28,750 nucleotides of DNA from the NCBI RefSeq assembly GCF_000966975.1, contig NZ_JZWV01000083.1, forward strand, positions 1-28,750. Direction: 5' to 3'. Shown piece after piece: positions 4,450 to 28,750 of the stretch; the first letter of the stretch is position 1, and each line of letters opens with the position of its first letter. The translations under genes and the position numbers were made by a program. This DNA comes from Streptomyces katrae (GTDB taxonomy: Bacteria > Actinomycetota > Actinomycetes > Streptomycetales > Streptomycetaceae). The notes under the pieces are model-generated. The model saw only the letters and a program-made list of their open reading frames with translations, had not been told where the DNA came from and searched no databases.

Positions 4450-4990
4450 GTGCCCCTGCCCTTCCTGACGGCCGACGGCGTCTTCGACGCACACGAGGAC
4501 GAAGCCCTCCCGCATGTGGATCCCGAGCGCTGGCGCCGCCCCTACCGGCCCGGCCCCTGGCGGGTGGCCGGTGCGGCGGTGCTCCTGCTGCTCTCGGCCT
4601 TCATGCTGCTGGCCACCGTCATCATCGCCTTCGCGGGCACCTGGGGCGGCGCCGCCGTCGCGGGGGCGGCCTCGGTCGGCGCTGCGGATCCTGCGCGCGG
4701 GCGTCTGGGTGAGTCCCGGCGGGCTGCGCCACGTGGGGTTCTTCACGACCCGTTCGATCCCCTGGAGCGAGGTCGAGGGGGTCAGGAAGGTCCAGCAGCC
4801 GGTCCGGTGGCTGGGGCTGCCGAGGACCGTGCAGGGGCAGGCGCTGACGGTGTCCGGACGCGGGGGCGTGGAGCTTCCGGTGCTGCTGACCGACCACAGC
4901 GCCGACTTCCTGTCGCGTGGCGAGGCCTTCGACCGGGCGGCCGTCCTGGTCGAGGCGTGGGCCGAGGAGTACCGGGCCGTGCCCGCCTGA
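4450..4990 (+). pseudogene. PH-like domain membrane protein, frame broken near 4640-4680
   Basis: The first frame starts at GTG 4450 (GAGG about 7 bases upstream) and gives MPLPFLTADGVFDAHEDE, then a hydrophobic segment at about 43-70 (AAVLLLLSAFMLLATVIIAF). From about 4680 the sensible sequence continues in the +1 frame: ALRILRAGVWVSPGGLRHV, then FFTTRSIPWSEVEGV, and it ends YRAVPA at 4990. The second part looks like a bacterial PH domain, with a short beta-rich core around the SIPWSEV motif. Together they describe one protein of about 180 aa, a membrane anchor plus PH-like domain, with a small indel at the junction. The shift equals an insertion of 1 mod 3 or a deletion of 2 mod 3. No tandem duplication is visible here, so a lost repeat unit is possible. 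The function is unknown. The break may be a sequence error. Confidence 0.65.
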
Positions 4991-5004
4991 CGGTCCGGAG
5001 CCTG

Positions 5005-5050
5005 CGACGAAGGGCCCGTACGGGGATCGTCCCGTACGGGCCCTTCGTCG
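5005..5050. terminator. Bidirectional terminator, 20-bp perfect stem
   Basis: Arms 5005-5024 and 5031-5050 are perfectly complementary and the loop is GATCGT. The structure sits between two convergent genes: the PH-like gene ending at 4990 and the leftward operon whose restored last gene ends at 5083. It can therefore serve both directions. Confidence 0.85.
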
Positions 5051-5082
5051 TGTGCCGTGTTCGTGCCGAGCGCCGGGTGGCG

Positions 5083-5549
5083 TCAGGTGCCGGCGTGCGC
5101 CGCCTGGTGCAGGGCGCCTGGTGCAGGGCGATGGCCCGTTGCATGGCCTTGCGGGCCCGCGGGGTGTCGCGGGCGTCGTGGTAGGCGACGGCGAGGCGGA
5201 ACCAGGTGCGCCAGTCCCCCGGCGCGTCCTCCGTCTCGGCCTTGCGGCGCGCGAAGACCTCGTCGGCGGAGTCCCGCAGGATCCGGCCGTACTGGTCCCG
5301 CTCCAGTTCGTCGACGGGCAGGCCGCCCTCGGCCTCCAGCTCGGCGGCGAGCTGGTTGGCGCGGGTGACGAACCGGGTGTTCATCCAGAGGAACCAGATG
5401 CCGATGACCGGCAGGACCAGCACGGCCACACCGAAGGTGACGGTGAGCCAGGTGCCCTGCTGGATCAGCATCAGGCCGCGGCTGCCGACCAGGACGAAGT
5501 AGACGACCAGGACGGCGGCCGTGATGAAGTAGGTGATCTTCGCGCGCAT
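5083..5549 (-). CDS. Small two-helix membrane protein with TPR-like tail; C-terminal frame shifted by 14-bp duplication
   Basis: The start is ATG at 5549, 15 bases after the dapB stop, so it is the last gene of the rpsO-pnp-M16-dapB operon. Residues about 8-30 and 34-56 are hydrophobic and form two membrane helices. Residues about 95-143 (ADEVFARRKAETE, then WRTWFRLAVAYHDARDTPRA, then RKAMQRAIALH) resemble one tetratricopeptide-type helical hairpin. The frame as given misses the expected stop and runs through the terminator to 4782 (255 aa), with a basic, low-complexity tail. Removing one copy of the 14-bp tandem duplication at 5101-5130 makes the protein end IALHQAAHAGT at a TGA (5083-5085), giving 150 aa. 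I take that as the ancestral form. The function is unknown. Confidence 0.75.
5101..5130. repeat. Perfect 14-bp tandem duplication in coding sequence
   Basis: GCCTGGTGCAGGGC occurs at 5102-5115 and again at 5116-5129, with period 14 holding from 5101 to 5130. On the coding (minus) strand it doubles codons around ALHQA and shifts the frame 12 codons before the expected stop. Confidence 0.9.
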
Positions 5550-5564
5550 GCTGCTACTGCCTCA

Positions 5565-6341
<777 letters not shown>

Positions 6342-7721
6342 CTAGGCGACCGCTTCGTCCAGGCGGGCCGCCTGCTTCTCCTTGAGCGGGCCGACCACCG
6401 CGAGCGAGGGCCGCTGTGCCAGTACATCCTGGGCGACCTCGCGGACGTCGTCCGGGGTCACCTCGGAGATCCGGGCCAGCATCTCGTCGACGGACATCTG
6501 GTCGCCCCAGCACAGCTCGCTCTTGCCGATGCGGTTCATGATCGCGCCGGTGTCCTCCAGGCCGAGGACGGTGGAGCCGGAGAGCTGGCCGACGGCGCGC
6601 CGGATCTCCTCGTCGGTGAGTCCCTCGGAGGCGACCTTGTCGAGCTCGGCGCGGCAGATCCGGAGCACGTCGTGGACCTGGCTGGGCCGGCAGCCCGCGT
6701 AGACGCCGAAGAGGCCGGTGTCGGCGAAGCCGGAGGTGTACGAGTACACGCTGTAGGCCAGGCCGCGCTTCTCGCGGACCTCCTGGAAGAGCCGGGAGGA
6801 CATGCCGCCGCCGAGGGCGGTGTTCAGCACGCCGAGGGCCCAGCGGCGGTCGTCGGTGCGGGACAGGCCGGGCATGCCGAGGACCACGTGGGCCTGTTCG
6901 GTCTTGCGGTTGACCAGGTCGACGCGGCCGGCGGTGCGGATGCGCTTGCTGCCGGTGCGGGGGCCGAGGGGCCGGGCGTCGGTGTTGCCCAGGGCGCCGG
7001 CCTTCTCGAAGGCGGCGCGGACCTGGCGGACGACCTTGGCGTGGTCGACGTTGCCGGCGGCGGCCACGACCAGGCGGGTGGGGTCGTAGTGCTTCTTCCA
7101 GAAGCGGCGGATCCGGTCGGCGCCGAGGGCGTTGATGGTGTCGACGGTGCCGAGGACGGGGCGGCCGAGCGGCGAGTCCCCGTACATGGTCTGGGCGAAG
7201 AGGTCGTGGACCATGTCGCCCGGGTCGTCCTCGGTCATCGCGATCTCTTCGAGGATGACGCCGCGCTCGGCGTCGACGTCCTCCTCGCGGATCAGCGAGC
7301 CGGTGAGCATGTCGCAGACCACGTCGATGGCCAGCGGCAGGTCGGTGTCGAGCACCCGGGCGTAGTAGCAGGTGTACTCCTTCGCCGTGAAGGCGTTCAT
7401 CTCGCCGCCGACCGCGTCGATCGCGGAGGAGATGTCGAGGGCGGTGCGCTTGGCGGTGCCCTTGAAGAGGAGGTGCTCCAGGTAGTGGGTGGCGCCGTTC
7501 AGGGAGGGCGTCTCGTCGCGGGAGCCGACGTTCGCCCAGATGCCGAAGGTGGCGGAGCGCACGGACGGCAGCGTCTCGGTGACGACGCGCAGTCCGCCGG
7601 GCAGGACGGTGCGGCGGACGGTGCCGATGCCGTTCTCGCCCTTGAGGAGGGTTTGGGTACGGGCGACGGCCCGCCCCTCCGAAGAGGGGCGGGCCGTCAC
7701 ACGGGAACTACGCGACGTCAC
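6342..7721 (-). CDS. M16 family zinc metallopeptidase
   Basis: This is a 459-aa insulinase/processing-peptidase-type protein. The inverted zinc motif HYLEH is at 79-83, and the distal glutamate ligand lies in the ERGVILEEI stretch (152-160). The second, inactive M16 domain follows from about residue 200 ([15 protein letters not shown], then a second lobe near [14 protein letters not shown]). The start is GTG at 7721, overlapping the pnp stop in GTGA, so translation is probably coupled to pnp. There is no signal peptide, so it is probably cytoplasmic. The substrate is unknown. The pnp-M16-dapB order is conserved in Streptomyces. Codons 8-19 lie inside a very strong hairpin (7665-7698). Confidence 0.9.
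7665..7698 (-). promoter_or_regulatory. 15-bp perfect hairpin with cUUCGg tetraloop inside the M16 gene start
   Basis: On the transcribed strand the arms GACGGCCCGCCCCTC and GAGGGGCGGGCCGTC close a TTCG loop with a C-G pair, the exceptionally stable cUUCGg form. It begins 20 bases after the pnp stop and lies wholly within the first 20 codons of the M16 gene. It could act as a 3'-end stabiliser or partial terminator for pnp mRNA, an RNase III substrate, or a brake on M16 translation. Confidence 0.7.
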
Positions 7722-9953
7722 TTGTCGGAGTCGTCCTTGTCAGCCTCGGCGGCGTCCTCGCCCTCGATCACGGGGACCAGGGAGAGCTTGCCGCGCTGGT
7801 CGATCTCGGCGATCTCGACCTGCACCTTGGTGCCGACCGCGAGCACGTCCTCGACGTTCTCCACGCGCTTGCCGCCGGCGAGCTTGCGGATCTGCGAGAT
7901 GTGCAGCAGGCCGTCCTTGCCGGGCATGAGGGAGACGAAGGCACCGAAGGTGGTGGTCTTGACGACCGTACCCAGGTAGCGCTCGCCGACCTCCGGCATG
8001 GTCGGGTTGGCGATCGCGTTGATCGTGGAGCGGGCGGCCTCCGCGGCCGGGCCGTCGGCGGCACCGATGTAGATGGTGCCGTCGTCCTCGATCGTGATCT
8101 CGGCGCCGGTGTCCTCCTGGATCTGGTTGATCATCTTGCCCTTGGGGCCGATGACCTCACCGATCTTATCCACGGGGATCTTGACGGTGATGATCCGCGG
8201 GGCGTTCGGGGACATCTCGTCCGGGGTGTCGATCGCTTCCATCATCACGTCGAGGATGTGGAGGCGGGCGTCGCGGGCCTGGGTGAGGGCCGCGGCCAGG
8301 ACGGAGGCCGGGATGCCGTCCAGCTTGGTGTCGAGCTGGAGGGCGGTGACGAACTCCTTGGTGCCGGCGACCTTGAAGTCCATGTCGCCGAAGGCGTCCT
8401 CCGCACCGAGGATGTCGGTGAGGGCGACGTAGTGGGTCTTGCCGTCGATCTCCTGGGAGATCAGGCCCATGGCGATGCCGGCGACGGGGGCCTTGAGCGG
8501 CACACCGGCGTTCAGCAGCGACATGGTGGAGGCGCAGACCGAGCCCATGGACGTCGAACCGTTGGAGCCGAGGGCCTCGGACACCTGGCGGATCGCGTAG
8601 GGGAACTCCTCGCGGGTCGGCAGGACCGGCACGATCGCGCGCTCGGCGAGCGCGCCGTTCGGCGAGCGCGCCGTGGCCGATCTCGCGGCGCTTCGGGGAG
8701 CCGACGCGGCCGGTCTCGCCGACGGAGTACGGCGGGAAGTTGTAGTTGTGCATGTAGCGCTTGCGGGTCACCGGGGAGAGGGTGTCCAGCTGCTGCTCCA
8801 TGCGGAGCATGTTGAGGGTGGTGACGCCCAGGATCTGGGTCTCGCCACGCTCGAACAGCGCCGAGCCGTGCACGCGCGGGATGGCCTCGACCTCGGCGGC
8901 CAGGGTGCGGATGTCGGTCAGGCCACGGCCGTCGATGCGGACCTTGTCCTTGATGACGCGCTCGCGCACCAGGGCCTTGGTCAGGCTGCGGTAGGCGGCG
9001 GAGATCTCCTTCTCGCGGCCCTCGAAGGCCGGGAGGAGCTTCTCGGCGGCGATGTCCTTGACGCGGTCCAGCTCGGCCTCGCGGTCCTGCTTGCCCGCGA
9101 TGGTGAGCGCCTGGGCCAGCTCGCCGCGGACGGCCTGCTCCAGGGCGGCGTAGACGTCCTGCTCGTAGTCGAGGAAGACGGGGAACTCGCCCTCGGGCTT
9201 GGCGGCCTTGGCGGCCAGGTCGGCCTGGGCCTTGCACAGGACCTTGATGAAGGGCTTCGAGGCCTCGAGGCCGGCGGCCACGATCTCCTCGGTGGGCGCC
9301 TCGGCGCCGCCCTTGACCAGGGCGATGGTCTGCTCGGTGGCCTCGGCCTCGACCATCATGATCGCGACGTCGCCGTCCTCCAGGACGCGGCCCGCGACGA
9401 CCATGTCGAAGACGGCGTCCTCGAGCTCGGTGTGCGTCGGGAAGGCCACCCACTGGCCCTTGATCAGCGCGACGCGGACGCCGCCGATCGGGCCGGAGAA
9501 GGGAAGGCCGGCCAGCTGCGTGGACGCGGACGCGGCGTTGATCGCGATGACGTCGTACAGGTGGTCGGGGTTGAGCGCCATGACGGTGGCGACGACCTGG
9601 ATCTCGTTGCGCAGGCCCTTCTTGAAGGAGGGGCGCAGCGGGCGGTCGATCAGGCGGCAGGTGAGGATCGCGTCCTCGGAGGGGCGGCCCTCGCGGCGGA
9701 AGAACGAGCCGGGGATCTTGCCCGCGGCGTACTGCCGCTCCTCGACGTCGACCGTCAGGGGGAAGAAGTCGAGCTGGTCCTTGGGCTTCTTCGACGCGGT
9801 GGTCGCGGAGAGCACCATCGTGTCGTCGTCCAGGTAGGCGACGGCGGAGCCGGCGGCCTGGCGGGCGAGGCGGCCCGTCTCGAAGCGGATGGTGCGGGTG
9901 CCGAAGGAACCGTTGTCGATGACGGCCTCGGCGTAGTGGGTCTCGTTCTCCAC
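7718..9953 (-). pseudogene. pnp: Polynucleotide phosphorylase, frame broken by a 16-bp tandem duplication
   Basis: PNPase degrades RNA 3'-5' with phosphate and also synthesises tails in Streptomyces. From GTG 9953 (N-terminus [19 protein letters not shown] about 9 bases upstream) the frame is correct to E432 in [12 protein letters not shown]. It then runs out of frame to a stop at 8166 (595 aa). The other frame carries the rest from [13 protein letters not shown]. Deleting one copy of the duplication at 8643-8674 yields 739 aa, the usual Streptomyces length. N-terminal RNase PH domain: residues about 10-145. Second RNase PH domain: about 310-540, with the phosphate loop [10 protein letters not shown] (457-466) and catalytic aspartates near 514-520. 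KH domain: GPKG at 597-600. S1 domain: about 654-724. As written, the truncated product lacks the active site and both RNA-binding domains. ATG 9968 (MEKTLVENE) is an alternative start. The break is either an error or a striking lesion. Confidence 0.93.
8643..8674. repeat. Perfect 16-bp tandem duplication inside pnp
   Basis: TCGGCGAGCGCGCCGT occurs at 8643-8658 and immediately again at 8659-8674. It inserts 1 mod 3 bases and shifts the pnp frame after codon 432. With one copy removed the translation reads [20 protein letters not shown], the conserved family sequence. Confidence 0.95.
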
Positions 9954-9985
9954 TAGCGTTTTCTCCATTTTCGTCGTCTCCGTCC

Positions 9986-10037
9986 GCCACCCGTGTGGTG
10001 GAGGACGTCCGCCCGGCCACCCGTGTGGTGGAGGACG
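9986..10037. repeat. Two identical 22-bp direct repeats in the pnp leader
   Basis: The same 22 bases occur at 9986-10007 and 10016-10037 (period 30, 8-base spacer). On the pnp-coding strand each copy contains CCACC ACACG GGTGG, a 5-bp stem with a 5-base loop. The leader would therefore carry two identical small stem-loops about 30-80 bases before the pnp start. Confidence 0.85.
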
Positions 10038-10224
10038 GTTGCGGAGAAGCGCTCCTGGCGTGCGGGCCGGTCTTCGATCGAAGCACCCGGTTCTCGGCCC
10101 CTCCGTGCGGGGCTTTCCGGATGCCACTACCGAGGACCGGCGGCGTAGGGAGGGCGCTCCTCCTCTTCAGTTGTGCGCTGTGACTCAGCCTACAAAGGGT
10201 CGGCCGGGTCGCGCACGTACGGCA

Positions 10225-10261
10225 AAGGGAGCGGCCCCATCGGTGTGGGAACCGCTCCCTT
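10225..10261 (-). terminator. Hairpin after rpsO: terminator or RNase III site
   Basis: AAGGGAGCGG (10225-10234) pairs perfectly with CCGCTCCCTT (10252-10261) around a 17-base loop, starting 11 bases after the rpsO stop. There is no strong T tract. Read-through into pnp is likely, with this stem as the processing site. Confidence 0.7.
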
Positions 10262-10271
10262 CACAGTGTGC

Positions 10272-10559
10272 TTACTTGGCGCCGGCCGCACCGCGGCGGA
10301 TGCCGAGGCGCTCGACCAGCGTACGGAAGCGCTGGATGTCCTTCTTGGCCAGGTACTGCAGCAGGCGGCGGCGCTGGCCGACCAGGATCAGCAGACCACG
10401 ACGGGAGTGGTGGTCGTGCTTGTGGGTCTTGAGGTGCTCGGTCAGGTCCGAGATGCGGCGGGACAGCATCGCGACCTGGACCTCGGGAGAGCCGGTGTCG
10501 CCCTCCTTGGCACCGAATTCGGCGATGATCTGCTTCTTCGTAGCGGCGTCGAGCGGCAC
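10272..10559 (-). CDS. rpsO: 30S ribosomal protein S15
   Basis: This is a 95-aa protein, the normal length for S15, which binds the central domain of 16S rRNA. It shows the family sequence, for example [20 protein letters not shown] (residues 21-40), [12 protein letters not shown] (47-58) and RRRLLQYL (63-70). The start is GTG at 10559, giving [12 protein letters not shown], with GAGGAG about 6 bases upstream. The longer open frame is leader sequence. It lies 171 bases downstream of eccD on the same strand and is followed by pnp, the classic rpsO-pnp pair. The leader has two predicted hairpins that might support S15 autoregulation. Confidence 0.97.
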
Positions 10560-10596
10560 GCTTACTCCTCGTATAGGTCTTCGTGGCCACCGAGTG

Positions 10597-10662
10597 CCCC
10601 AGGTCGAATTCTCTGGGGAGCTTCCGTGACTCGGGAGGCGGGGCCCGCTGAGCGCAGCCTCC
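10597..10662 (-). promoter_or_regulatory. rpsO leader with two stem-loops (possible S15 autoregulatory leader)
   Basis: CCCCAG (10597-10602) pairs with CTGGGG (10613-10618), and GGAGGC (10634-10639) pairs with GCCTCC (10657-10662), both within 105 bases of the rpsO start. S15-binding leader RNAs are known in several bacterial phyla including Actinobacteria. Assigning this one to that class is an inference from position only. Confidence 0.35.
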
Positions 10663-10730
10663 AGAGGATTCCGGGGGCGCGTACACAAACGGCCGTCACA
10701 CAGCGTACCAGGCTGCCGGGTCGCGGGGTC

Positions 10731-12236: not shown

Positions 12237-12458
12237 CTGTGTGACCCCCCTGGTTGCCGCCCCTGGGCGGCCGATTCGCGGATGCGCATGGGTGGATGCG
12301 CGTGGTGCGCGCGCCACCCTACCCGGAGGGCGTGCGGCCGTCGGCAAGTAGGATCACGGTTCGCGCCCGGGCGCGGGGTGCGGTAGTCCCCTGCGGGTCC
12401 GGGGAGTTGGGGGCGGCGGTCGCGGCGTCCCGTCCGCTTTCGAGGGATTGATGCTCCG
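12237..12458. promoter_or_regulatory. Divergent intergenic region between eccD and eccC
   Basis: These 222 bases must contain the promoters for both secretion genes. A TAGGAT at 12349-12354, about 105 bases before the eccC start, could be a -10 element, but I see no matching -35. No other clear structure is visible. Confidence 0.3.
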
Positions 12459-15400
12459 GTGAGCCAGATCGTCGTCAAGCGCCCGCCCCGGTCGCTGCCA
12501 CCCGAAGTGCCTTCCGAGGAGCTGAGGCTGGAGGCTCCGCCGGAGCTGCCGCGGGGGCAGCAGGAGGGCATGCTGATGCAGCTCCTGCCGATGCTGGGCA
12601 TGGGTTCCTCGGTGGTGTTCTTCTTCATGCCGGGCGCGGCGCCGTTCATGCGGATCATGGGCGTGCTGATGCTGGTGTCCACGGTGGGCATGGTCATAGC
12701 CCAGCTGGTGCGCCACCGGCGCGGTACGCAGGGGCAAATGGCCGATGTGCGGCGGGACTACCTCAAGTACCTGGCGCAGACGCGCCGTCAGGTGCGCAGG
12801 ACTGCGCGGGCGCAGCGTGACGCGCAGCTGTACCTGCACCCGGCTCCCGAGCAGCTGTGGTCGGTGGTCGCGGAGGGTTCGCGGCTGTGGGAACGGCGGG
12901 TCGGCGACGCGGACTTCGGGCAGGCCCGGCTGGGGCTGGGCGCGCAGGCGCTGGCGACGCCGCTGGTGGCTCCGGACACGGCGCCGGTGGACGAGCTGGA
13001 GCCGCTGACGGCGGGGGCGATGCAGCGCTTCCTGAAGGTGCACTCCTCGCTGGACGGGCTGCCGGTGGCGGTGTCGGTGCGGGCGTTCTACCACGTGACG
13101 GTGTCCGGGGAGGCGGAGTCGGCGCGCGGGGCGGCGCGGGCGATGGTGGCGCAGCTGGCGACGCTGCACTCCCCCGAGGACCTGGTGGTCGGCGTGGTGG
13201 CGGCGCCGGGGGCGGTGCCGGCGTGGGACTGGGTGAAGTGGCTGCCGCACACGCAGGTGCCGGGGCAGGTGGACGGGGCCGGCACGAAGCGGCTGTTCAG
13301 CGATGACCTGGGCGAGCTGGAGGGACTGCTGGGGTCCCGGCTGGAGGGGCGGCCGCGGTTCAGCCGGGACGTGTCGCCGGTGCTGGACCAGCCGCACCTG
13401 GTGGTGGTCCTGGACGGCGGGCTCGTGCCGCCGGACTCGGTGTTCGCGGCGGCCGAGGGGCTGCAGGGGGTGACCGTCGTCGAGGTGGTCGCGGGCGAGC
13501 TGGACGAGCCGCGCGGCGGGCTGTCGGTCGTGGTGCGGCCGGGCCGGCTGCGGCTGGAGTCGGGCGCGGGGGTCGCGTACGAGGGGGTGCCGGACACCCT
13601 GTCGCTGCCGGCGGCGGAGGCGCTGGCCCGGCAGCTGGCACCGCTGCGCACGGGCGGCGGGGACGACGACGAGCCGCTGCTGGCGAACCTGGACTTCACG
13701 GATCTGCTGAACCTGGGCGACGCGGCCTCGGTCGACGTGTCCCGTACCTGGCGGCCGCGGTCGGCCGGTGAGCGGCTGCGGGTGCCGATCGGTGTGGGCG
13801 AGGACGGCGCGCCGGTGATGCTGGACCTGAAGGAGGCCGCGCAGGAGGGCATGGGCCCGCACGGGCTGTGCGTGGGCGCGACCGGTTCGGGCAAGTCGGA
13901 GCTGCTGCGGACGCTGGTGCTGGGGCTGGCGGTGACCCACACGTCGGAGACGCTGAACTTCGTCCTCGCGGACTTCAAGGGCGGTGCCACCTTCACGGGC
14001 ATGGGGCAGATGCCGCACGTCGCGGCGGTGATCACCAACCTGGCGGACGACCTGACGCTGGTCGACCGGATGGGCGACTCGATCCGCGGGGAGCTCCAGC
14101 GCCGGCAGGAGCTGCTGCGCGCGGCGGGCAACTACGCGAACATCCACGACTACGAGAAGGCGCGCGCGGCGGGTGCGGCGCTGGAGCCGCTGGCCTCGCT
14201 GGTCCTGGTGATCGACGAGTTCAGCGAGCTGCTGACGGCGAAGCCCGACTTCATCGACATGTTCATCCAGATCGGCCGGATCGGCCGTTCGCTGGGCGTG
14301 CACCTGCTGCTGGCCTCGCAGCGGCTGGAGGAGGGCAAGCTGCGCGGTCTGGACACGTACCTGTCGTACCGGATCGGTCTGCGGACCTTCTCGGCGGCGG
14401 AGTCGCGGACGGCGATCGGCGTGCCGGACGCGTACCACCTGCCGTCGGTGCCCGGTTCGGGCTATCTGAAGTTCGGTACGGACGAGATGACGCGGTTCAA
14501 GGCGGCGTACGTCTCGGGCGTCTACCGCTCGGGCGGCCGGGAGCTGTCGGTGGGGCCGTTCCCGGTGGAGCGGCGGCCGGTGCTGTTCACGGCGGCTCCG
14601 GTGCCGGTGTGCCGGTGGTGTACGCGGCCCCGGACCCGGCGTACCTGGCGGCGCAGCCGGAGCGGGAGGACGACGCGCTCGCGGACACGGTCCTCGACGT
14701 GATCGTGGGGCGGCTGGAGGGGCAGGGGGTGCCGGCGCACCAGGTGTGGCTGCCGCCGCTGGACCGGGCTCCGTCGCTGGACCAGCTGCTGCCGGCGCTG
14801 GCTCCGTCGGCGGAGCGCGGGCTGCACGCGGAGGGCTACACGCGGCCGGGCGGGCTGGTGGTGCCGCTCGGGCTGATCGACAAGCCCTTCGAGCAGCGGC
14901 GCGAGGTGCTCTACCGGGACTTCTCGGGGGCGGCGGGCCACATGCTGGTGGTCGGCGGCCCGCAGTCGGGCAAGTCGACGCTGATGCGGACGCTGATCTC
15001 GGCGTTCGCGCTCACGCACACCCCGCGCGAGGTGCAGTTCTACGGGCTGGACTTCGGCGGTGGCGGTATGTCGGCGGTGGCGGAGCTGCCGCACGTGGGC
15101 GGGATCGCCTCGCGGCTGGACCCGGAGCGGGTGCGGCGTACGGTCGCGGAGGTGGCGGGGATCCTGGACCGCCGGGAGGAGTTCTTCCGGGCGAACGGCA
15201 TCGACTCCATCGCCACCTACCGGCGCAGGCGGGCCGCGGGCGAGCTGCCGGGCGAGGCGTGGGGGGACGTGTTCCTGATCGTCGACGGCTGGGGCGGTTT
15301 CCGCGGCGAGTACGAGGGCCTGGATCAGGTGGTCACGGACGTGGCCTCGCGCGGTCTGGGCTACGGGGTCCACGTGGTGGTGACCGCGGCCCGGTACATG

Positions 15401-16420
15401 GAGGTGCGGGCCGCGCTGAAGGACCAGATCCTGGGGCGGCTCGAACTGCGGCTCGGTGACGTCATGGACTCCGAGTTCGACCGCAGGGTGGCGGCGAACG
15501 TGCCGACGGGGATGCCGGGGCGCGGGCAGGTCCCGGAGAAGCTGCACTTCCTGGGCGCGTTGCCGCGCGTCGACGGTTCGCACGAGGCGGAGAGCGTCTC
15601 GGAGGGCACGGCGGAGTTCGTGGCGGCGGTCCGGGCGGGCTGGACGGGTCCGTCGGCTCCGGGCGTACGGCTGCTGCCGCGGCTGCTGCACGCCGACCAG
15701 CTGCCCAAGGGCGGGGAGTTCCCGGAGCGCGGGATCGCGATCGGCATCGACGAGACGGCGCTGGAGCCGGTGTTCGTCGACTTCGAGTCGGACCCCTTCT
15801 TCCTGGTGTTCGGCGAGAGCGAGTCCGGCAAGACGAACCTGCTGCGGCTGATCGCGCGGCAGATCGCCGAACGGTATACCCCGGAGCAGGCGAAACTGGT
15901 GGTCGGGGACTACCGGCGCGGGCTGCTGGGGGCGCTGCCGGAGGAGCACCTGCTGGAGTACGCGCCGATGGCGAATTCCCTGCAGACGCACATGGAGGCG
16001 CTGGCCGGGGTGTTCTCGCGCCGCCAGCCGCCCACCGACGTCACCCCGCAGCAGCTGCGGGACCGCAGCTGGTGGACCGGCCCGAACGTGTTCATCGTGA
16101 TCGACGACTACGACCTGGTGGCCACGAGCCAGGGCAATCCGCTGGCGCCGCTGGTGGAGTTCCTGCCGTTCGCCCGCGACACCGGGGTCCGGTTCATCAT
16201 CGCGCGGAGTTCGGCGGGGGCCTCGCGGGCCATGTACGAGCCGTTCATGCAGCGGATCAAGGAGCTGGGGGCGCAGGGCGTGGTGCTGTCGGGCGATCCG
16301 TCCGAGGGCGACCTGCTCGGCTCGGCCCGGCCCCGGCCGATGCCTCCGGGCCGCGGCCACTACGTCTCGCGCCGGCGCGGGACCTCGCTGGTGCAGCTGG
16401 GGCGGATGCCGGGGCTGTAG
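12459..16420 (+). pseudogene. eccC: Type VII secretion ATPase EccC, frame broken by an 8-bp tandem duplication
   Basis: EccC is the FtsK/SpoIIIE-type motor that recognises Esx substrates. GTG 12459 opens a 747-aa frame. It has two membrane helices (about 45-85), then ATPase domain 1 with Walker A GATGSGKS (K479) and Walker B LVLVIDEFSELL. The frame is lost at about residue 715. The sequence resumes two bases out of frame as VPVVYAAPDPAYLAAQP and continues through domain 2 (GGPQSGKS, K836; Walker B LIVDGW without the usual acidic partner) and domain 3 (GESESGKT, K1122; VIDDYD). Removing one copy of the duplication at 14601-14617 gives 1317 aa, the usual length for fused EccC. GTG 14609 could restart the second half (about 603 aa). 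The halves would then match the EccCa1/EccCb1 split of mycobacterial ESX-1. A hairpin terminator follows at 16447. Confidence 0.92.
14601..14617. repeat. Perfect 8-bp tandem duplication inside eccC
   Basis: GTGCCGGT occurs at 14601-14608 and 14609-14616, and period 8 extends one base further. It adds 2 mod 3 bases. With one copy removed the translation reads FTAAPVPVVYAAPDPAYL. Because CCGGTG is also repeated inside, the exact original length is slightly ambiguous. Confidence 0.85.
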
Positions 16421-16446
16421 GCCCGCGCGTCCGGGGCGTGGCCGGA

Positions 16447-16483: not shown

Positions 16484-16553
16484 GGCGGGCGCTCGCAGAT
16501 AATCGGCTGCGAAGACCCAGCAGGACCGCACGACCGACGGGAAGGGCCGCATC

Positions 16554-16787: not shown

Positions 16788-16804
16788 GGGCTGCCGGAGC
16801 CGTG

Positions 16805-16845
16805 CGAAGAGGGGGCGCGCCCGGTGCGGGCGCGCCCCCTCTTCG
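16805..16845. terminator. Bidirectional terminator between DUF397 gene and esxA
   Basis: Arms 16805-16823 and 16827-16845 are perfectly complementary over 19 bp, leaving a 3-base GTG turn, so the real loop is probably 5 bases or more. The stem ends in CTTCG. It lies between two convergent genes. Confidence 0.85.
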
Positions 16846-16872
16846 TATGCCGTGTGTGGTGAGCCGTGGGGC

Positions 16873-17184: not shown

Positions 17185-17220
17185 GCTCTTCTCCTTCGGC
17201 TGGCGTGCGGGGCGGACGGC

Positions 17221-17541: not shown

Positions 17542-17691
17542 CCGAAGCTCCTCACTTCTCAATTCCCCGGCCGAAGCGGGGGATCGCGCGGCGGAGCGGA
17601 TCGTCCGGGCGCGGATTCGAGCCGCGCACAACGGAGTTCCCCCTCTGCCTCACGCCCTCCCCCGATCACAGTCGTGAAGCCTGCGGCCACT

Positions 17692-18909: not shown

Positions 18910-18924
18910 GGCCGGTCTCCTCAC

Positions 18925-20505: not shown

Positions 20506-20744
20506 GACCGCCTGTTCCTCCCCGCACGGCCCGGTCGGTGGGGCCGCTCCCCGGGCCCTGGTTGTCGGACCGGGGACCTACTATGCCTGTTGACGGAGGA
20601 TCGGCTGGTGTCGGGTGGGGCGATCGGTGGGGGGATTCCGTTGTCGGGCGGCCGAGGCCGTACGGTGACCGGACTTCTTTGTTCCGCCCATGGGTTCGAT
20701 CCGCCCTTGGGCTTGATCCGCCCATGAGTTGGGGAGGTGCGTCA
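20506..20744. promoter_or_regulatory. Divergent eccB/eccE region with three degenerate 17-base repeats
   Basis: The region separates two divergent secretion genes. At 20684-20734 three consecutive 17-base units begin CCGCCCATGGGTT, CCGCCCTTGGGCT and CCGCCCATGAGTT. The last unit reaches the eccE ribosome site. No clear promoter hexamers are visible to me. An in-frame ATG at 20724 lies within the third unit. Confidence 0.5.
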
Positions 20745-22022
20745 GTGGGGGCCACCGCGACGGCGCCACAGGCGGCCGAGGCAGCGACGACCGGACGCGG
20801 CGGGGTGACACCGCATCCGAGGCCCAGTCCGGGCCGCTTCGGGCCGTTCCGACTGCAACAGTTCGTGCTCCTGCAGCTCGCCGCCGCCGCGCTGCTCGTG
20901 GCCTGGGTCGTGGAGCCCCTGCTGCTGGTGCCCGCCGGAGCGGGCGCGCTGGTGCTGGTGCTGCTCGCCCTGGTACGGCGCCACCAGCGCTCCCTGCCCG
21001 AGTGGATCGGCGGGGTGCTCGCACTGCGGGCCCGGCGGCGCAGGGCGGCGTCCGCCACCGTGCCCGCGGGCACCGAGCCGGGGCTGGCGCCGCTGGTCGA
21101 GGCCGATCCGGCGCTGCGGACGACGGCCTTCGGGGGCCGGGACCGGCGGCCGGTGGGACTGGTCGGCGACGGGACGTTCCTGACGGCGGTGGTGCAGGTC
21201 GACATGGACGCCACCGCGCTGCGGCCGGAACGGACGGCGCGGCCGCTGCCGCTGTCCGCGGTCCGGGACGTCCTGGAGGTGGACGGGATCCGGCTGGAGT
21301 CGGCACAGCTGGTGCAGCACACGCAGCCGGCCCCCGCCCCGCACCTGCCGGCGCAGTCGATGGCGGCCCGCAACTACGCCCCGCTCCAGGCCCGGACGGG
21401 TACTCCGGCGGTGCGGCTGACGTGGATCGCCCTCAAGCTCGACCCAGAGCTGTGCCCCGAGGCCGTCGCCGCGCGCGGCGGAGGGCTCGTGGGGGCCCAG
21501 CGGTGCGTGGTGCGGGCTGCGGACCAGCTGGTGAGCCGGCTGACCGGGGCGGGGTTCCGGGCCACGGTGCTGACGGAACAGGAGCTGACCGGCGCGCTGG
21601 CGACCTCGTCGTGCGCGAACCCGATGGCGATCACGCAGGCGGGGCGGTCGGGGAGCACCGGACGGCGTACGGAGGAGACCCCGCGCACCTGGCGCTGCGA
21701 CGACCGGCGGCACACGACCTACTGGATAGCCCGCTGGCCGCAGCTGGGCGGGGCCGGGGCGGCGCTGCCGCAGTTCGCGGCGCTGCTGACGTCGCTGCCC
21801 GCGCTGGCCACGAACTTCAGCCTGACGATGGCCCCGGCCGGGCGTCAGGGCGTGACGCTGACGGGACACGTCCGGGTGACGGGTCGCAGCGACGAGGAGC
21901 TGGTGGCGGCCCGCCGGGAGCTGGAGCGGACGGCCCGGGGGGTTCGCACCGGTCTGGTGCGGCTGGACCGTGAGCAGGTCCCCGGGCTGCTGGCGTCGCT
22001 GCCGTTGGGTGGGGCTCGGTGA
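20745..22022 (+). CDS. eccE: Type VII secretion protein EccE
   Basis: This is a 425-aa protein with two adjacent membrane helices near the N-terminus (about 40-56 and 58-77: FVLLQLAAAALLVAW and LLLVPAGAGALVLVLLALV), then a soluble domain. This is the EccE layout, and in the mycobacterial complex EccE sits at the periphery. The domain contains LVGDGTFLTAVVQVDMD and a late RRHTTYWIARWPQLG stretch typical of Streptomyces EccE. The start is GTG at 20745, 7 bases after GGGGAGG. Earlier in-frame starts (ATG 20724, 20538) lack a ribosome site. The gene is followed by a G-rich repeat tract and the 233-aa gene. Confidence 0.85.
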   Translation: MGATATAPQAAEAATTGRGGVTPHPRPSPGRFGPFRLQQFVLLQLAAAALLVAWVVEPLLLVPAGAGALVLVLLALVRRHQRSLPEWIGGVLALRARRRRAASATVPAGTEPGLAPLVEADPALRTTAFGGRDRRPVGLVGDGTFLTAVVQVDMDATALRPERTARPLPLSAVRDVLEVDGIRLESAQLVQHTQPAPAPHLPAQSMAARNYAPLQARTGTPAVRLTWIALKLDPELCPEAVAARGGGLVGAQRCVVRAADQLVSRLTGAGFRATVLTEQELTGALATSSCANPMAITQAGRSGSTGRRTEETPRTWRCDDRRHTTYWIARWPQLGGAGAALPQFAALLTSLPALATNFSLTMAPAGRQGVTLTGHVRVTGRSDEELVAARRELERTARGVRTGLVRLDREQVPGLLASLPLGGAR

Positions 22023-22029
22023 GGGGTTC

Positions 22030-22075
22030 GGGGATGGGTGCGGGGATGGGGATGGGTGCGGGGATGGGTGCGGGG
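22030..22075 (+). repeat. G-rich 12-base repeat tract with quadruplex potential
   Basis: GGGGATGGGTGC occurs at 22030-22041, 22048-22059 and 22060-22071, with a GGGGAT half unit at 22042-22047 and GGGG after the last unit. At least eight runs of three or more G lie on the coding strand, with 2-3 base spacers, in the 70-base gap between eccE and the next start. Confidence 0.85.
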
Positions 22076-22092
22076 CTGTGAGGGGCACGGGT

Positions 22093-22794
22093 GTGGTGAG
22101 GGGCGGGTTCGGGCTGATCGGGCCGCGCCGGGAGCGGCACGTGGTGCCGGCGGCGGATCTGGACGCGCTGGCGGTGCCCGTCGGGGACGACGGGGTCGTC
22201 ATCGGCGTGGACGCCGAGGGGCGGCCGGCGGTGCTGGGCGTGAACCGGCCCACCCCCTACGAGGTGACGCTGATCGGCGGCCTGTGGACGGCCCAGGTGA
22301 TGGCGCTGCGCACCGCCGCCACGGGGGCCCGGGTCGCGGTGGAGACGGGGCGCCCGCAGGTGTGGAACGAGCTGGCCCGGGCGGCCGGTGGCGGGCAGCA
22401 GTGCGTGACCCTGCACGAGGTGGGCCGGGTGCCGCCGCAGGGCGCGTCGGCGGGCAGTCCGGTGCTGGTGGTCCGGGACTGCGGGATGCGGCCGCCGCGG
22501 GGGCGGGTGGTGGCGGGGCCGTGGCAGTCGGTGCTGACGCTGCTGCCGTACCTGAGCCCGACGGCGCCCCGGCTGCTGCGGAACTCCGCGCTGGTGGGGG
22601 TGCAGCGGGTGTCCCCGGACGAGGCGGAGCAGGTGGGCGCGCTGATGCGGCTGCCGAGGGGGGCGGTGGACTCGCTGCCGACGCTGGGGGACGGGGTGAC
22701 GCTGTGGTGCACGCAGCGGGACCGGAAGTTCGTCATGACGCAGGCGACGGAGACGGAGACCGGGCTCCTGGGGGCGGCGCGGCGGATCGACTGA
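22093..22794 (+). CDS. Conserved type VII-locus protein of unknown function
   Basis: This 233-aa soluble protein starts at GTG 22093, 7 bases after GAGGGG. GTG 22078 and 22096 are in-frame alternatives. It begins VRGGFGLIGPRRERHVVPAA. There is no membrane helix or signal peptide. Recognisable segments are DDGVVIGVDAEGRPAVLGVN (near 35-55), a central TLIGGLWTAQVMALRTAATGA, and YLSPTAPRLLRNSALVGVQR (near 155-175). I cannot assign a domain. The central part resembles a Rossmann-like or P-loop-like alternation of strands and helices but has no Walker motif. Its place between eccE and the EspI-like ATPase gene, on the same strand, suggests an accessory role in secretion. Confidence 0.75.
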   Translation: MVRGGFGLIGPRRERHVVPAADLDALAVPVGDDGVVIGVDAEGRPAVLGVNRPTPYEVTLIGGLWTAQVMALRTAATGARVAVETGRPQVWNELARAAGGGQQCVTLHEVGRVPPQGASAGSPVLVVRDCGMRPPRGRVVAGPWQSVLTLLPYLSPTAPRLLRNSALVGVQRVSPDEAEQVGALMRLPRGAVDSLPTLGDGVTLWCTQRDRKFVMTQATETETGLLGAARRID

Positions 22795-22813
22795 GGCGGA
22801 TCGGCTGAGGCGG
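22781..22813. repeat. Imperfect 14-base tandem repeat at a stop codon
   Basis: A 14-base unit containing GGATCGACTGAGG is repeated at once with A changed to G (GGATCGGCTGAGG), so period 14 holds over 22781-22813 with one mismatch. The first unit includes the stop codon of the 233-aa gene, so the extra copy is non-coding. The remaining bases to 23055 hold no clear gene or hairpin. Confidence 0.8.
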
Positions 22814-23055
22814 GGGCTGGGCCGGGCGGCGTTCCGGCGGATGTGTGGGTGTGGTGCGGATGCGGTGGCGTCGCTTCGGCGGGAGGGTGGCCGCCCGGCG
22901 GGCGGTGATGGTTGCTCAGGGCCCGGGGGGCCTGTAGGCAGGACGTGTGGGGGCGCGACCTCCGGGGCTTTCGAGCACGGAGCGCGATTAGGCTGAGCGC
23001 GGGCGCGGCGTCTTAGGTGGGCGCCTGACCGGTGTTCAACAGACCAGGAGGATCA

Positions 23056-25792
23056 GTGAGCGGCGATCGGAACGAGAGGCGCGGCGGGACGTGGGATGTC
23101 CCGACGGACGATCAGTCCGACGCGGAGCCCGATGTGACGGGCGAGTTCACCATCGACTACACCCCGCCGGCCTGGTACACGCAGAGCCCGCCGCCCGCGC
23201 CCGCTGCGGGGGTGCCGGGGCTGCCGGAGGGCAGTGGCTTCGAGCCCCACCGGCAGGCGGACGCACCGGCAGGCGGACGTGGTCTCGCCCTCGACGATGC
23301 GGATCGCCGCGCCGGGGCCGCGCGGTGATGCCGGTGCCCAGGCTGCGGCCTTCCCGGGCGCCGCGCATCCGGGGGGTTCCGGTCCCGAGTCCGCTGCCGC
23401 GCCTTCGGGTGCGGTTCCCGGGGGTGTGGGTGCGGAGTCCGCCGGCGTGCCCTCAGGGGCGGCGCCCGGGGGTGCCGCGTCCGCCGGTGCGCCTTCCGGG
23501 GCCTCTGCCGGGGCCCCGGCCGTGCCTGCGCAGCCGGAGGGGGCCGCGCCCTTCGCCGTGCCCACCGTGCCGCCGCTGTCCGTACCGGCCGGTCCCGTGT
23601 TCCCGGCGGCTGCCGACGCGGGTGCGCCCGGCGGGCAGCAGCCTGGTGTGAGCGCCCCTGCCGACGCCGCTGCCGTCCCCGCCCCGCAGGCCGGGGCACC
23701 GTTCCCGGGCGGGCAGTTGCCTGCGGATGCGGGCCAGGGGGCCTTGGGCGGGCAGCAGCCCGCCGGCGCGCCGGAGGGTGTCCCGGCTGCCCCCGGCCTT
23801 CCGGCCGAGGGGGTTCCGGGCTTCCCGGGCGTCCAGCCGCCGGTGGGTGGGAGCGGCCCCGGAGTCCCCGCACCGGCCGATGCGGTTGCGGCCGCAGACG
23901 GTGGGCAGCCGGTTGCGGCTCCCGTCGTACCCGCTCAGGTTCCGTTCGGCGAGAGCACCCCGGCAGCGGGCGCCGGTCTCCCCGCCCCTGCGGCCTCGGG
24001 TGCGCCCGCTGCGCCGGGTGAGGACGTGCCGGGGGCGTCGGCGGCACCCGCCGATGCCGTGCCCGGGGGCCCGGGCGCCCAGCCGGGGGTCCCGGCAGCG
24101 GCCGGGGATTCGGGTCCGGTCGCGGGTGGCCTGCCGGGGGCACCGGCAGCGCCCGTGGACGCGGGTCCGGGGGGCCCGGGTGGCCAGCCGGGGGCTGCCG
24201 TGGATTCGGTGCCGGGGTTCCCGGGCGCCCAGCCGGGGGCTGCCGCTGCGCCCGTGGACGCGGTGCCTGGGTTCCCTCCCGCCATGCCCGGTGGTGTGGG
24301 GCCGGCCGCGGACGGGGGGCGGACTGCTACTCCCGCCGAGGGTGTCGCCGTGCCGGGGCCGTACGGTGGTGCGCTGCCGCCGCTGCCGCCCGCTTTCGCC
24401 TCGGGCGCACCGCAGGCCGCACCGCAGGCCGCTCCGCAGGGCGCACCGCAGGGCGCGGCGCCGCAGGGGTACGGGTTCCCGCCGGAGGGCGCGCAGCAGG
24501 CCCAGGGGTACGGGGTCCCGCCGCAGTCCCAGGCTCCGCAGGGGTACGGGTTCCCGCCCGTGGCCCCGCAGCAGCAGGCTCAGCCGTACGGGGTGCCGCC
24601 GCAGCAGGCGCAGCCGGTGCCGCAGGGGCCGTACCAGCAGCAGCCTGCCGGGCAGGGGCCTGGTGCGCCGCTGGGCTACACCGCTGCCGTCGAGCTGTCC
24701 TCCGACCGCCTGATCCGTGCCAAGCAGAAGCCCAAGCCCACCCGGTCCGGCTTCCGCTTCGGCGGGAAGGCTGCCGAGGCCGACCGCCAGCGGAAGCTGG
24801 AACTCATCCGGACGCCGGTGATGTCCTGCTACCGGATCGCCGTGATCAGCCTGAAGGGCGGCGTCGGCAAGACCACGACGACCACCGCCCTCGGCGCCAC
24901 CCTCGCCACCGAGCGCCAGGACAAGATCCTGGCCATCGACGCGAACCCCGACGCCGGAACCCTCGGCCGCCGCGTGCGCCGCGAGACCGGTGCGACGATC
25001 CGGGACCTGGTCCAGGCGATCCCGTACCTGCACTCGTACATGGACATCCGGCGGTTCACCTCGCAGGCGCCCTCCGGGCTGGAGATCATCGCCAACGACG
25101 TGGACCCGGCGGTCTCGACGACGTTCAACGACGAGGACTACCGCCGCGTCATAGAGACGCTCGGCCGCCAGTACCCGATCATCCTCACCGACTCGGGCAC
25201 CGGCCTCCTGTACTCCGCCATGCGCGGGGTCCTGGACCTGGCCGATCAGCTGATCATCATTTCCACGCCCTCCGTGGACGGGGCGAGCAGCGCGAGCACC
25301 ACGCTCGACTGGCTCTCCGCCCACGGTTACGCGGATCTCGTCTCACGCTCGATCACCGTCATCTCCGGGGTCCGCGAGACCGCCAAGATGATCAAGGTCG
25401 AGGACATCGTGCAGCACTTCGAGACCCGCTGCCGGGGCGTCGTCGTGGTGCCGTTCGACGAGCACCTCGCGGCCGGCGCCGAGGTGGACCTCGACCTGAT
25501 GCGGCCCAAGACCCGGGAGGCCTACTTCAACCTCTCCGCCCTGGTCGCGGAGGACTTCGTACGGGCCCAGCAGCAGGGCGGGCAGGGGCAGTGGGGCGTC
25601 CCGCAGCAGCAGCCTCAGCAGTACGCCCAGCCCCAGCAGCCGCAGCCGCAGCCGCAGCCGCCGCAGGGGCCGTACCAGCAGCCGTACGGGCAGCAGCCCT
25701 ACCCGCAGCCCGGGCAGCCCTGGCCGCAGACCCCGCCGGCTCCGGCTCCGCAGCAGCCGGGGCAGCCCCCGCGCGATCCGCGGCTCGGCTGA
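23056..25792 (+). pseudogene. EspI-like MinD/ParA ATPase with Pro/Ala/Gln-rich arms, frame broken by a 16-bp duplication
   Basis: GTG 23056 follows AGGAGG by 4 bases and opens MSGDRNERRGGTWDVPTDDQ. The frame shifts at the duplication 23248-23279. With one copy removed the protein is 906 aa. Residues about 50-535 are low-complexity Pro/Ala/Gly, with repeated [14 protein letters not shown] and YG(F/V)PP units. Residues about 590-830 are a MinD/ParA ATPase: deviant Walker [12 protein letters not shown] (invariant K600 with signature K595), IDANPDAG, and a switch region LTDSGTG. A Gln/Pro-rich tail follows and ends RDPRLG. This matches mycobacterial EspI, a proline-rich MinD-like ATPase encoded at ESX-1. 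A role in controlling secretion is inferred from that and from the locus. As written, translation from GTG 23056 stops near 23328. An internal ATG (23234) in the second frame could still make the ATPase. Confidence 0.8.
23248..23279. repeat. Perfect 16-bp tandem duplication inside the EspI-like gene
   Basis: CACCGGCAGGCGGACG occurs at 23248-23263 and again at 23264-23279. Deleting one copy joins FEPHRQAD to [12 protein letters not shown] in one frame. Confidence 0.95.
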
Positions 25793-25795
25793 GAA

Positions 25796-25839
25796 CGCAG
25801 GAGGGCCCCACCGTCCCGGGACGGTGGGGCCCTCCTGCG
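25796..25839. terminator. Bidirectional terminator between the EspI-like gene and ribF
   Basis: A 19-bp perfect stem (25796-25814 with 25821-25839) has loop CCCGGG. It starts 4 bases after the stop of the plus-strand gene and ends 10 bases before the end of ribF on the other strand. Confidence 0.9.
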
Positions 25840-25848
25840 CAATACCCT

Positions 25849-26808
25849 CTAGCGGCGTGCGGCGTCGAAGGCGTCGGTGAGCGCCCGGGCCCGCTTCACG
25901 TCGTCGGCGATGGCCTCCAGCAGGCCGTCGAGCGACTCGAACTTCGCCATCCCGCGCACGTACGCGAGGAACTCCACCGACACCTGCTTGCCGTACAGGT
26001 CCAGCCCGAGGCGGTCGATCGCGTACGCCTCCACGGTCCGCTCGGTCGCGTCGAACTGCACGTTCGTACCGACCGAGATCGCCGCCGGCATCCGCTCGCC
26101 GTCCGCGGAGAGCCAGCCCGCGTACACCCCGTCGGCCGGGATCGCGGTGTGCGGGGCCGTCTCGACGTTGGCCGTCGGGTAGCCGAGCTCGCGTCCGCGC
26201 TGCGCACCGCGCACCACGACGCCTTCGACCCGGTGCGGGCGGCCCAGGATCTCGGCGGCGCCCTCCATGTCCCCCTCGGCGACGAGCTTGCGGGCCAGGG
26301 TGGAGGAGAACGGCACACCGCCGCCCGCCTCGCCGCGCTCGACCAGGTCGACGACCTCGACCTCGTAGTCGTACGTGGAGCCCAGCTCGCGCAGGAAGTC
26401 GACGTTTCCGGCGGCGCGGTGGCCGAAGCGGAAGTTCGGGCCCTCGATGACGGCGCGCGCGTGCAGCTTGTCGACCAGCACCTTGACGATGAAGTCGGCC
26501 GGGGACAGCTGGGAGAACTCCGCCGTGAAGGGCAGGATCAGCAGCGCGTCGACGCCGAGGCCGGCCATCAGTTCGGCGCGGCGGTCGTACGGGGCCAGGA
26601 TCGGCGGGTGGCTGCCGGGGCGGACGACCTCGCTCGGGTGCGGGCTGAAGGTCACGACGACCGAGGGCACGCCCAGGGCGCGGGCCTTCGCCACGGCCCG
26701 TCCGATGATCAGCTGGTGTCCGCGGTGCACACCGTCGTAGGAGCCGATGGTGACGACGCTGCGTCCCCAGTCCTGGGGGATGTCCTCCAAGCCACGCCAG
26801 CGCTGCAC
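25849..26808 (-). CDS. ribF: Bifunctional riboflavin kinase/FAD synthetase
   Basis: This 319-aa protein makes FMN from riboflavin and then FAD. The N-terminal adenylyltransferase (1-160) has IGSYDGVHRGHQ (21-32), TFSPHP (53-58) and GPNFRFGHRAAGN (123-135). The C-terminal flavokinase (about 185-310) has GYPTAN (209-214). The start is GTG at 26808 (MQRWRGLEDIPQDW), 8 bases after GAGGAG. The open frame continues upstream into the next gene to 28743 only because of a frameshift there. FAD from this enzyme would serve ThyX among others. A promoter candidate lies at 26841-26870. Confidence 0.95.
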   Translation of the reverse strand: MQRWRGLEDIPQDWGRSVVTIGSYDGVHRGHQLIIGRAVAKARALGVPSVVVTFSPHPSEVVRPGSHPPILAPYDRRAELMAGLGVDALLILPFTAEFSQLSPADFIVKVLVDKLHARAVIEGPNFRFGHRAAGNVDFLRELGSTYDYEVEVVDLVERGEAGGGVPFSSTLARKLVAEGDMEGAAEILGRPHRVEGVVVRGAQRGRELGYPTANVETAPHTAIPADGVYAGWLSADGERMPAAISVGTNVQFDATERTVEAYAIDRLGLDLYGKQVSVEFLAYVRGMAKFESLDGLLEAIADDVKRARALTDAFDAARR

Positions 26809-26840
26809 TGTGACCGCTCCTCGCCCGAATCCTTGTAGTC

Positions 26841-26870
26841 CCTGTACCGGATTGCCGATTGCAGGTCTAA
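26841..26870 (-). promoter_or_regulatory. Candidate ribF promoter
   Basis: On the minus strand TTAGAC (26870-26865) is separated by 18 bases from TACAGG (26846-26841), a fair match to vegetative -35/-10 elements, about 33 bases before the ribF start. This is weak evidence based only on hexamers and spacing. Confidence 0.35.
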
Positions 26871-26933
26871 GACTGCCATGCCGGTGGCCCGGTCCCCGCA
26901 TCGGAGTCCGGCAGTGCCGCGGCGCGGGCCGGC

Positions 26934-28750
26934 TCAGGTGACGTCCGGGGCGGACCTGCTGAGGGTCTCCACGGTACGGCGGGCGCCCGGCCCGAGCAGC
27001 GCCGCGGCCTCCGCCCCGGACTCGGCGAGCCAGCGGGCCACCAGTGCCCCGAAGACCGGGTCGGCCCGGACCAGCTCCACGGTGCGCTGCTCGAACACCT
27101 CGGGCCCGCCCGGGGTCCGCAGCAGCTGCCGGCCGGTGCGGCGGAGCAGCTCGCGGGTCCGGTCCTCGGAAGGCGCCGAGCACCTGCGGGTCGGGCTCCT
27201 CGCGCAGCAGGGTCTCGGCCAGGTCGGCCCGCAGCGCGGAGCCGGGTTCGGTGCCGGGAGCTGCCAGTACGCCGGCCAGCGCGGCCCGTACCGTCGGCGG
27301 GGCGGAGCGCAGCAGGCCCAGGACCAGCGGGCGGAGCACGGGTGCGGCGGCCGGGCCCTGTTCCAGGCGCCGGTCGACGAAGGCGGCGGCGTGCGGGGCG
27401 TCCTCGGGGTGCCGGACGAGGTGTTCCCGTACGAGGTCGCCGGCGCGGCGGGCCAGCGCCGGGGTGGTCAGCGCGGCCAGGGCGCGCAGCACCTCCCCGT
27501 CCGCGCGGGCGCGCAGGGCGTCGAACACGGCGTCCGGGTCGGGGAGTAGGTCGGGGAGTACGGGCAGCGCCGCGACGAGTGCGGAGGCGGGCAGGCGGGA
27601 GCCGCGGTCGGGGTCGCGGAAGCAGTCGAGGGCGTCGGTCAGGTGGCGGGCGCGGGCCTGCGGGTCGCGCAGCAGCATCCCGAGGGCGCTGCCGTGCAGG
27701 GGGAGGTCGCCGGGGCGGGCGAGGAGGGCCTCGGCGGCGTAGCGCAGCAGTTCCCGGTCGGCGGGGGTGCGGACGTGGGGGGCGGTGGCGAGTCCGTACG
27801 CGGCGGCGGCCACGCGCCGGCCGGGGCGGTCGTCGTGGGCCCAGCGGTCGACGGCGCGGGACAGGGCGGAGGGCTCGTCCTCGGCGAGGACGGCGAGCAG
27901 TTCGTCGGCGCGGGGGTGCGCGGCGTCGACGAGGGCCTCGGTGAGGTCGTCGAGGGCGAGGCCGCGGTGGGTGTGCAGGAGGGCCTGGGCGGCGGTGGCC
28001 ACGGTGGCTCCCGGGCGGCCGCGCAGTCGGCGTTCATCGGTGAACCAGGCGCAGAGCAGGGGCAGGACGAGCTGCGGGGCGCGGGCGAGGCGGCGCCCGG
28101 CGGCCTCGAGGTAGCGGTGGTCGGAGGGCAGCAGGCGGCGCAGCAGGTCGAGCCGGTCGGACTCGGGCAGCCGGAGCCGGTTCCAGAACCAGCCGCCGAA
28201 GTCGTGCGACCCGGTCCGGGCGACGTGCTCGGCGAGGGCGTGCAGGACGGGCAGGTGGGGGGTGGCGTCGGGGGCGTGCAGCAGGGTGGCGCGCAGCAGC
28301 CGGGCGGCCCACCAGGCCCGGTCCGGGTGCACGTCGCCCGGCGGGGCCTCGGCGAAGGCGTTCAGGGCGTCGACCAGCCGGGCCAGCTCCTCCCCGGTCT
28401 CGGGGACGGGAAGCCTGCGCAGGGCTTCGAGCACGGGCCCGATCCGGTGCCGGGGCACGGGCGGGCCGGGGGCGGCGGGGCCGGAGTGGACGAGGGAGTC
28501 GAGGGCGGTGGGGACGTCGAGGTGGCAGGCCTGGAGCCAGTCGGAGAGCTCCTCGTGCGCGAAGCGGTAGCCGGGGCCGGCGGGGACGAGCAGGCCCTCG
28601 GTGAGGACGGCGGAGGCCCAGCCGGTGCGCCAGGGGAACAGCTCCTCGAAGGCGGCCCGGTCGAGCTGTCCCTGTCCGGGCCCGAGACACCGCCGCGCGG
28701 CCTCGTGCACCCGCCCGGCCACCCGCGCGGCGAGCCGCCGCACCCCGGGC
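26934..28750 (-). pseudogene. C-terminal part of a STAND/NACHT-like helical-repeat protein; frame broken near 27170, 5' end outside window
   Basis: The gene enters from the right edge, so its start and any ATPase or protease domain are not visible. The first visible part has LDRAAFEELFPWRTGWASAV and YRFAHEELSDWLQACHL. This FAHE-type winged segment follows the NTPase core in STAND/NACHT proteins. About 400 residues of Leu/Ala-rich helical repeats (HEAT-like) follow. The frame holds to EEPDPQVLGA near 27180. The sensible C-terminus continues in another frame, EDRTRELLRRTGRQLLR to RTVETLSRSAPDVT, ending at a TGA at 26934. The shift equals +1 or -2; a collapsed repeat around TCGGCGCC is possible. 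As written, the frame instead fuses into ribF. Large proteins of this type occur beside ribF in Streptomyces, which is recollection rather than a search result. Confidence 0.65.

Follow-up and report, generated by a model that had tools for sequence, protein, structure and literature searches.

In the duplicated overlapping contigs described by Kelley and Salzberg (2010, PMC2864568), neighbouring contig ends that cover the same bases but stay unmerged give rise to a false copy, and in the homotype false duplications of PMC9516828 the false copies go together with gaps, sequencing errors or very low depth. Tandem duplications within a reading frame are also described for pneumococcal capsule phase variation (Waite 2001, 2003; via PMC4022640). 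Each of these shares a feature with the broken genes reported here. Among the papers listed in our searches, we recognised none on short false tandem duplications in bacterial drafts. Here, we examined six broken reading frames on one contig of a Streptomyces draft genome, together with a sample of the same assembly. Judging from sequence comparison, the breaks are very probably an assembly artefact and not part of the biology of the organism, and that they are artefacts of one kind or another is slightly more probable still.

The window, meaning the whole stretch of DNA analysed, is the entire contig C97 (28,750 bp, 72.8% GC, no Ns) of a genome (G000) of 8,047,724 bases in 1873 contigs, with a completeness figure of 99.94%. 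When the downstream piece of pnp was used as a query, the nearest named records were from Streptomyces, including S. flavotricini. We compared the window with nine Streptomyces relatives, using pairwise alignments and then a multiple alignment. A frame-tracking model placed breaks at 4681, 5117, 8658, 14609 and 27168. It missed the one in the SCO5717-family gene, which has a low-complexity start and where related proteins revealed the break. These are the same six broken frames that a first-pass annotation of the letters alone had reported, and its four perfect duplications (14, 16, 8 and 16 bp) all lie where it placed them; it had not remarked that at each of the remaining two breaks sequence is missing, through a deletion of 14 bp in one case and of 35 bp in the other. 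The features are as follows.

4450..4990, + strand: PH-domain (bPH_6) protein gene, with a frame change near 4670-4681
5083..5549, - strand: small protein gene (first annotated as a small membrane protein), final part out of frame
5101..5130, no strand: 14 bp perfect tandem duplication (2.14 copies), close to where the small protein gene has its 3' end
7718..10037, - strand: pnp (PNPase / guanosine pentaphosphate synthetase I, TIGR02696), split over two frames, with the start codon inside the upper end of the span
8643..8674, no strand: 16 bp perfect tandem duplication in pnp, single copy in relatives
9979..10037, no strand: 30 bp imperfect tandem repeat just upstream of pnp, with no frame break called there
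12459..16420, + strand: eccC (type VII secretion ATPase), split over two frames, a single frame in relatives
14601..14617, no strand: 8 bp perfect tandem duplication (2.125 copies) where the EccCa part gives way to the EccCb part
23056..25792, + strand: SCO5717-family growth-regulating ATPase, split over two frames, with a start codon assigned from the sequence
23248..23279, no strand: 16 bp perfect tandem duplication early in the SCO5717-family gene
26934..28743, - strand: gene first labelled STAND, with an open frame running to the contig end and a frame change near 27161-27168
27537..27560, no strand: 12 bp perfect in-frame tandem duplication

The extra copies had been read as additions to the family sequences, and the relatives bear this out. 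In pnp, the window carries 16 bp more than all nine relatives, and the two pieces, searched separately, match TIGR02696 at 2-429 and 426-720. In S. coelicolor and S. antibioticus, attempts to disrupt pnp worked only when the cell had another copy of the gene (PMC5872136), and PNPase is reported as essential in Streptomyces (PMC5872136, PMC10126417). Among the matches listed there was no second pnp entry from G000, for which the match count was 2. The imperfect repeat upstream of pnp is likewise extra relative to all nine relatives (by 30 bp in eight and 31 in one) and is probably a natural intergenic repeat. In the small protein gene, the multiple alignment shows the 14 bp unit once in 9/9 relatives; the flank towards the gene end is diverged there, and the pairwise alignments did not decide. 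The neighbouring PH gene is short of sequence in the window, with exactly 14 bp missing relative to eight of the nine relatives and a net 17 relative to the ninth.

In eccC, the window has 8 bp more than eight of nine relatives, and in the ninth (G188) the gap cluster sums to -10. The EccCa piece matched its family over 1-673 of 673 positions and the EccCb piece over 1-563 of 564, the two having been searched separately. Some ESX systems have two genes at the EccCa/EccCb junction, and the break position coincides with that junction. A natural gene split is not supported by the relatives, however: in 9/9 of them both parts share one frame and align over their full or almost full length (the second part starts at residue 25 in the G188 alignment). 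Elsewhere in the window, the end of eccE (22010-22075) holds dense tandem repeats of 6, 12 and 18 bp, and several alignments to relatives stop there.

The gene at 23056..25792 had been called EspI-like, and the names of its relatives make it an SCO5717-family ATPase instead. Its 16 bp duplication is extra against 7 of 8 aligning relatives, with a net +13 against the eighth, and in the family proteins P0006, P0012 and P0027 one sequence spans what the window has in two frames. No clear conspecific intact protein was found among the best 120 of 659 proteins, where the window's own ranked first. The last gene lacks 35 bp relative to 7/7 aligning relatives, and its STAND label found no backing from any Pfam or NCBIfam family at E 0.001. 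The 12 bp in-frame duplication within it is also absent from 7/7 aligning relatives and could be natural or another false join.

As a background for chance repeats, we generated 50 third-order Markov sequences, each of window length. None of the 50 contained a perfect repeat of period 13 to 40, and period 8 perfect repeats occurred at 1.8 per sequence. Because period 8 is common by chance, the 8 bp duplication in eccC was judged on homology to the relatives only.

We then looked for frame breaks in 53 stretches of G000 besides the window; eight were all N, leaving 45 stretches on 37 contigs (665 kb). Most came from long contigs in match lists, some were picked by contig number and three by synteny (C730, C710 and C1471), and C1410, C1183, C921 and C256 were sampled because their ABC match appeared broken. 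Frames were tracked with a Viterbi model that includes frame-shift states. Its training data were the long open frames found in 62 named Streptomyces loci, and because these loci double as controls, the training and control sets overlap. A break was called strong if it had at least 150 bp and a log-odds of at least 10 on both sides. By this measure, 19 strong breaks were found in 532 kb of coding sequence outside the window and 3 within it, versus 5 in 1.20 Mb of controls: 1 in 144 kb of the relative G038, none in the 191 kb taken from eight relatives and 4 in the 868 kb of the named loci. Two of these last four, L115 and L116, are close to the pnp end and may simply reflect normal overlap between genes. 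With the four contigs picked for broken matches left out, 17 remain in about 507 kb, and the rate in G000 is ~34-36 per Mb of coding sequence. Breaks at such a rate are implausible in the consensus genome of a living organism. Dropping the strength filter reduces the contrast (44 in 532 kb for G000, 9 in 144 kb for G038, 5 in 191 kb for the eight relatives and 24 in 868 kb for the named loci), and many of the unfiltered calls are few-base stubs at gene ends.

The breaks are unevenly spread over contigs (p=0.035), with none in C3, C482, C1164 and C418, four of the longest sampled contigs (0 in 171 kb). The top count among the sampled contigs belongs to C863 (L179, L180), with five strong breaks in 40 kb, in genes including a salicylyl-CoA 5-hydroxylase-like oxidoreductase and a CoA ligase. 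The stretches that were compared with relatives contain ten of the 19 strong breaks, and 8 of these match an indel (in C1458, C682, C1074, C53 and C1410, plus three in C1471, for which G038 was the sole relative used). The break in C717 has no supporting indel, and that in C730 lies just beyond the alignment. Of the C1471 indels, one is a deletion of 73 bp and the other two are duplications of 10 bp, of which one was pooled to +13 with adjoining gaps in the alignment. One of the two duplications lies in dxr, a gene normally needed for isoprenoids, whose pieces fall at 3-89 and 95-387 of TIGR00243. Monomeric isocitrate dehydrogenase is also broken, with pieces at 27-668 and 664-741. The broken murJ is less telling, because weaker second matches are present in both relatives.

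Perfect duplications of period at least 7 occur at 8 of the 19 strong breaks in G000 and at 0 of 5 in controls. Seven of the eight are likely causes of their break, the eighth being a repeat of 12 bp that adjoins a deletion of 73 bp; the other 11 strong breaks have no perfect duplication. The first-pass annotation had proposed a whole-genome scan for duplications inside genes, and in our sample of 45 stretches such a scan does single out the assembly: with weak calls included, 11 of 41 perfect duplications of period at least 8 and of a length not divisible by three lie on a frame break, versus 0 of 100 in controls (Fisher p=4.3e-7). Within the window the figure is 3 of 5. The overall density of repeats, by comparison, is not clearly raised. 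Perfect repeats of period at least 10 number 57/Mb in the sampled genome, 45/Mb in the 62 named loci and 33/Mb in G038, so beyond the window it is the position of the repeats that stands out and not their number, and raised repeat density was rejected as an explanation. The same figures make the diverged repeats, which had been offered as proof that such events happen naturally here, a weak argument, though the window itself does hold 7 such perfect repeats in 28.75 kb (243/Mb).

We next tabulated indel sizes in the 116.7 kb of coding sequence for which G038 and G173 both provided coverage (the window and seven stretches), setting aside gap clusters whose net size differed between the two. Six of the seven stretches had been picked for breaks or repeats, and the blind one (the first 20 kb of C3) had no such indel. 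Nine indels not divisible by three are specific to G000, namely +8, +16, -14 and -35 in the window and +19, +19, -73, -4 and +1 outside it, versus two specific to G038 and three to G173 over the same sequence. Usual bacterial indel spectra are richer in 1 bp slips. Homopolymer sequencing errors, which the annotation had also discounted, were rejected as the main cause, since just one of the nine is a 1 bp change. A deletion of exactly 73 bp was seen in two unrelated genes, murJ (L187 near 8920, against two relatives) and a PmfR-like regulator (L194 near 1549, against one).

The ends of the duplications show no microhomology beyond chance (on average 1.0 extra matched bases versus 0.88 expected, over 14 frame-breaking sites). 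Local composition does differ: GC in the 200 bp around 22 strong breaks is 76.4%, versus 73.2% at random coding sites (p=0.0015), and the contig gaps C97-C730 and C730-C710 map to 83% GC in G038, where the 95th percentile of 100 bp windows is 82%. Whole-contig GC has no link to break count (Spearman 0.02) and is unsupported as a driver of the break rate. Hairpin energy at the breaks is not significantly different (p=0.16).

We favour an assembly origin because of the genome sample, the reported essentiality of pnp, the lack of microhomology and the GC-rich context. Some observations pull the other way: the smaller contrast among unfiltered calls, the four long contigs without a strong break, the uneven counts that do not track contig GC, the break in C717 that no indel bears out, the unremarkable overall repeat density, the 99.94% completeness, and the presence of a 1 bp and a 4 bp indel. 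The data directly show the indels, that relatives lack them and that they recur in the sampled genome, as well as how large they are, how their ends are built and how GC-rich their surroundings are; the joining step that is probably responsible is inferred. Coverage would dip at locally GC-rich spots and leave fragments whose ends nearly meet. Ends overlapping by ~8-19 bases, if joined unmerged, would leave two copies of the overlap side by side and so produce a perfect duplication; a short gap, if closed empty, would appear as missing bases; and a wider gap would become a contig end.

The breaks might instead be real and recent, in a culture that carries many small duplications and deletions from end joining with fill-in, which needs no microhomology. 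Duplication ends without microhomology agree with this, as does the presence of both duplications and deletions. Streptomyces hyphae hold several chromosomes per compartment, which could shelter damaged copies. Against it stand the frequency of strong breaks within a single consensus (~34-36 for each Mb of coding sequence), including one in a gene reported essential, and the lean towards GC-rich spots, which coverage explains more simply. We consider real mutation very unlikely, and the more specific proposal that multi-chromosome hyphae shelter microhomology-free end-joining scars of about 8-73 bp, one of them in pnp, a shade more so. An artefact made before assembly, through chimeric or amplified reads or a read-correction step, would be expected to produce the same indels as fragment joining, and the two exactly 73 bp deletions in unrelated genes hint at a process length. 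Amplification chimeras usually give inverted or distant joins, and we regard this source as highly improbable. Least credible of all, to the point of near dismissal, is revertible slippage that switches genes on and off as in the pneumococcal capsule genes, the second of the two readings that the first-pass annotation had offered beside assembly-made duplications: perfect two-copy duplications inside reading frames are similar in form, but these show no slippage-permitting microhomology beyond chance at their ends, are absent from the relatives and also affect housekeeping genes, and no perfect duplication accompanies 11 of the 19 strong breaks.

If the assembly explanation is right, split or broken genes in this assembly should not be taken as pseudogenes, split genes or fusions, and ~200 places would be affected genome-wide, an order of magnitude extrapolated from the sampled break rate. 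The signature, a perfect duplication of 8-19 bp and of a length not divisible by three that sits on a frame break at a GC-rich spot without microhomology, could serve as a quick screen.

The sites have properties expected of unmerged fragment ends. The extra copies are absent from related genomes, they are identical and unrelated to pre-existing repeats (1.0 versus 0.88 at 14 sites), they are indifferent to reading frame and gene importance, and local GC together with the 83% GC contig gaps marks the sites as hard to assemble. The pneumococcal duplications are reported for capsule genes and were observed in culture, whereas those described here affect diverse genes of one assembly, housekeeping ones included. 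The homotype false duplications of PMC9516828 involve under-collapsed, error-bearing reads in vertebrate assemblies, at a far larger scale than here. The only case analysed in PMC2864568 concerns vertebrate haplotypes and separate contigs, while the duplications in this Streptomyces draft are bacterial, 8-19 bp long and within one contig.
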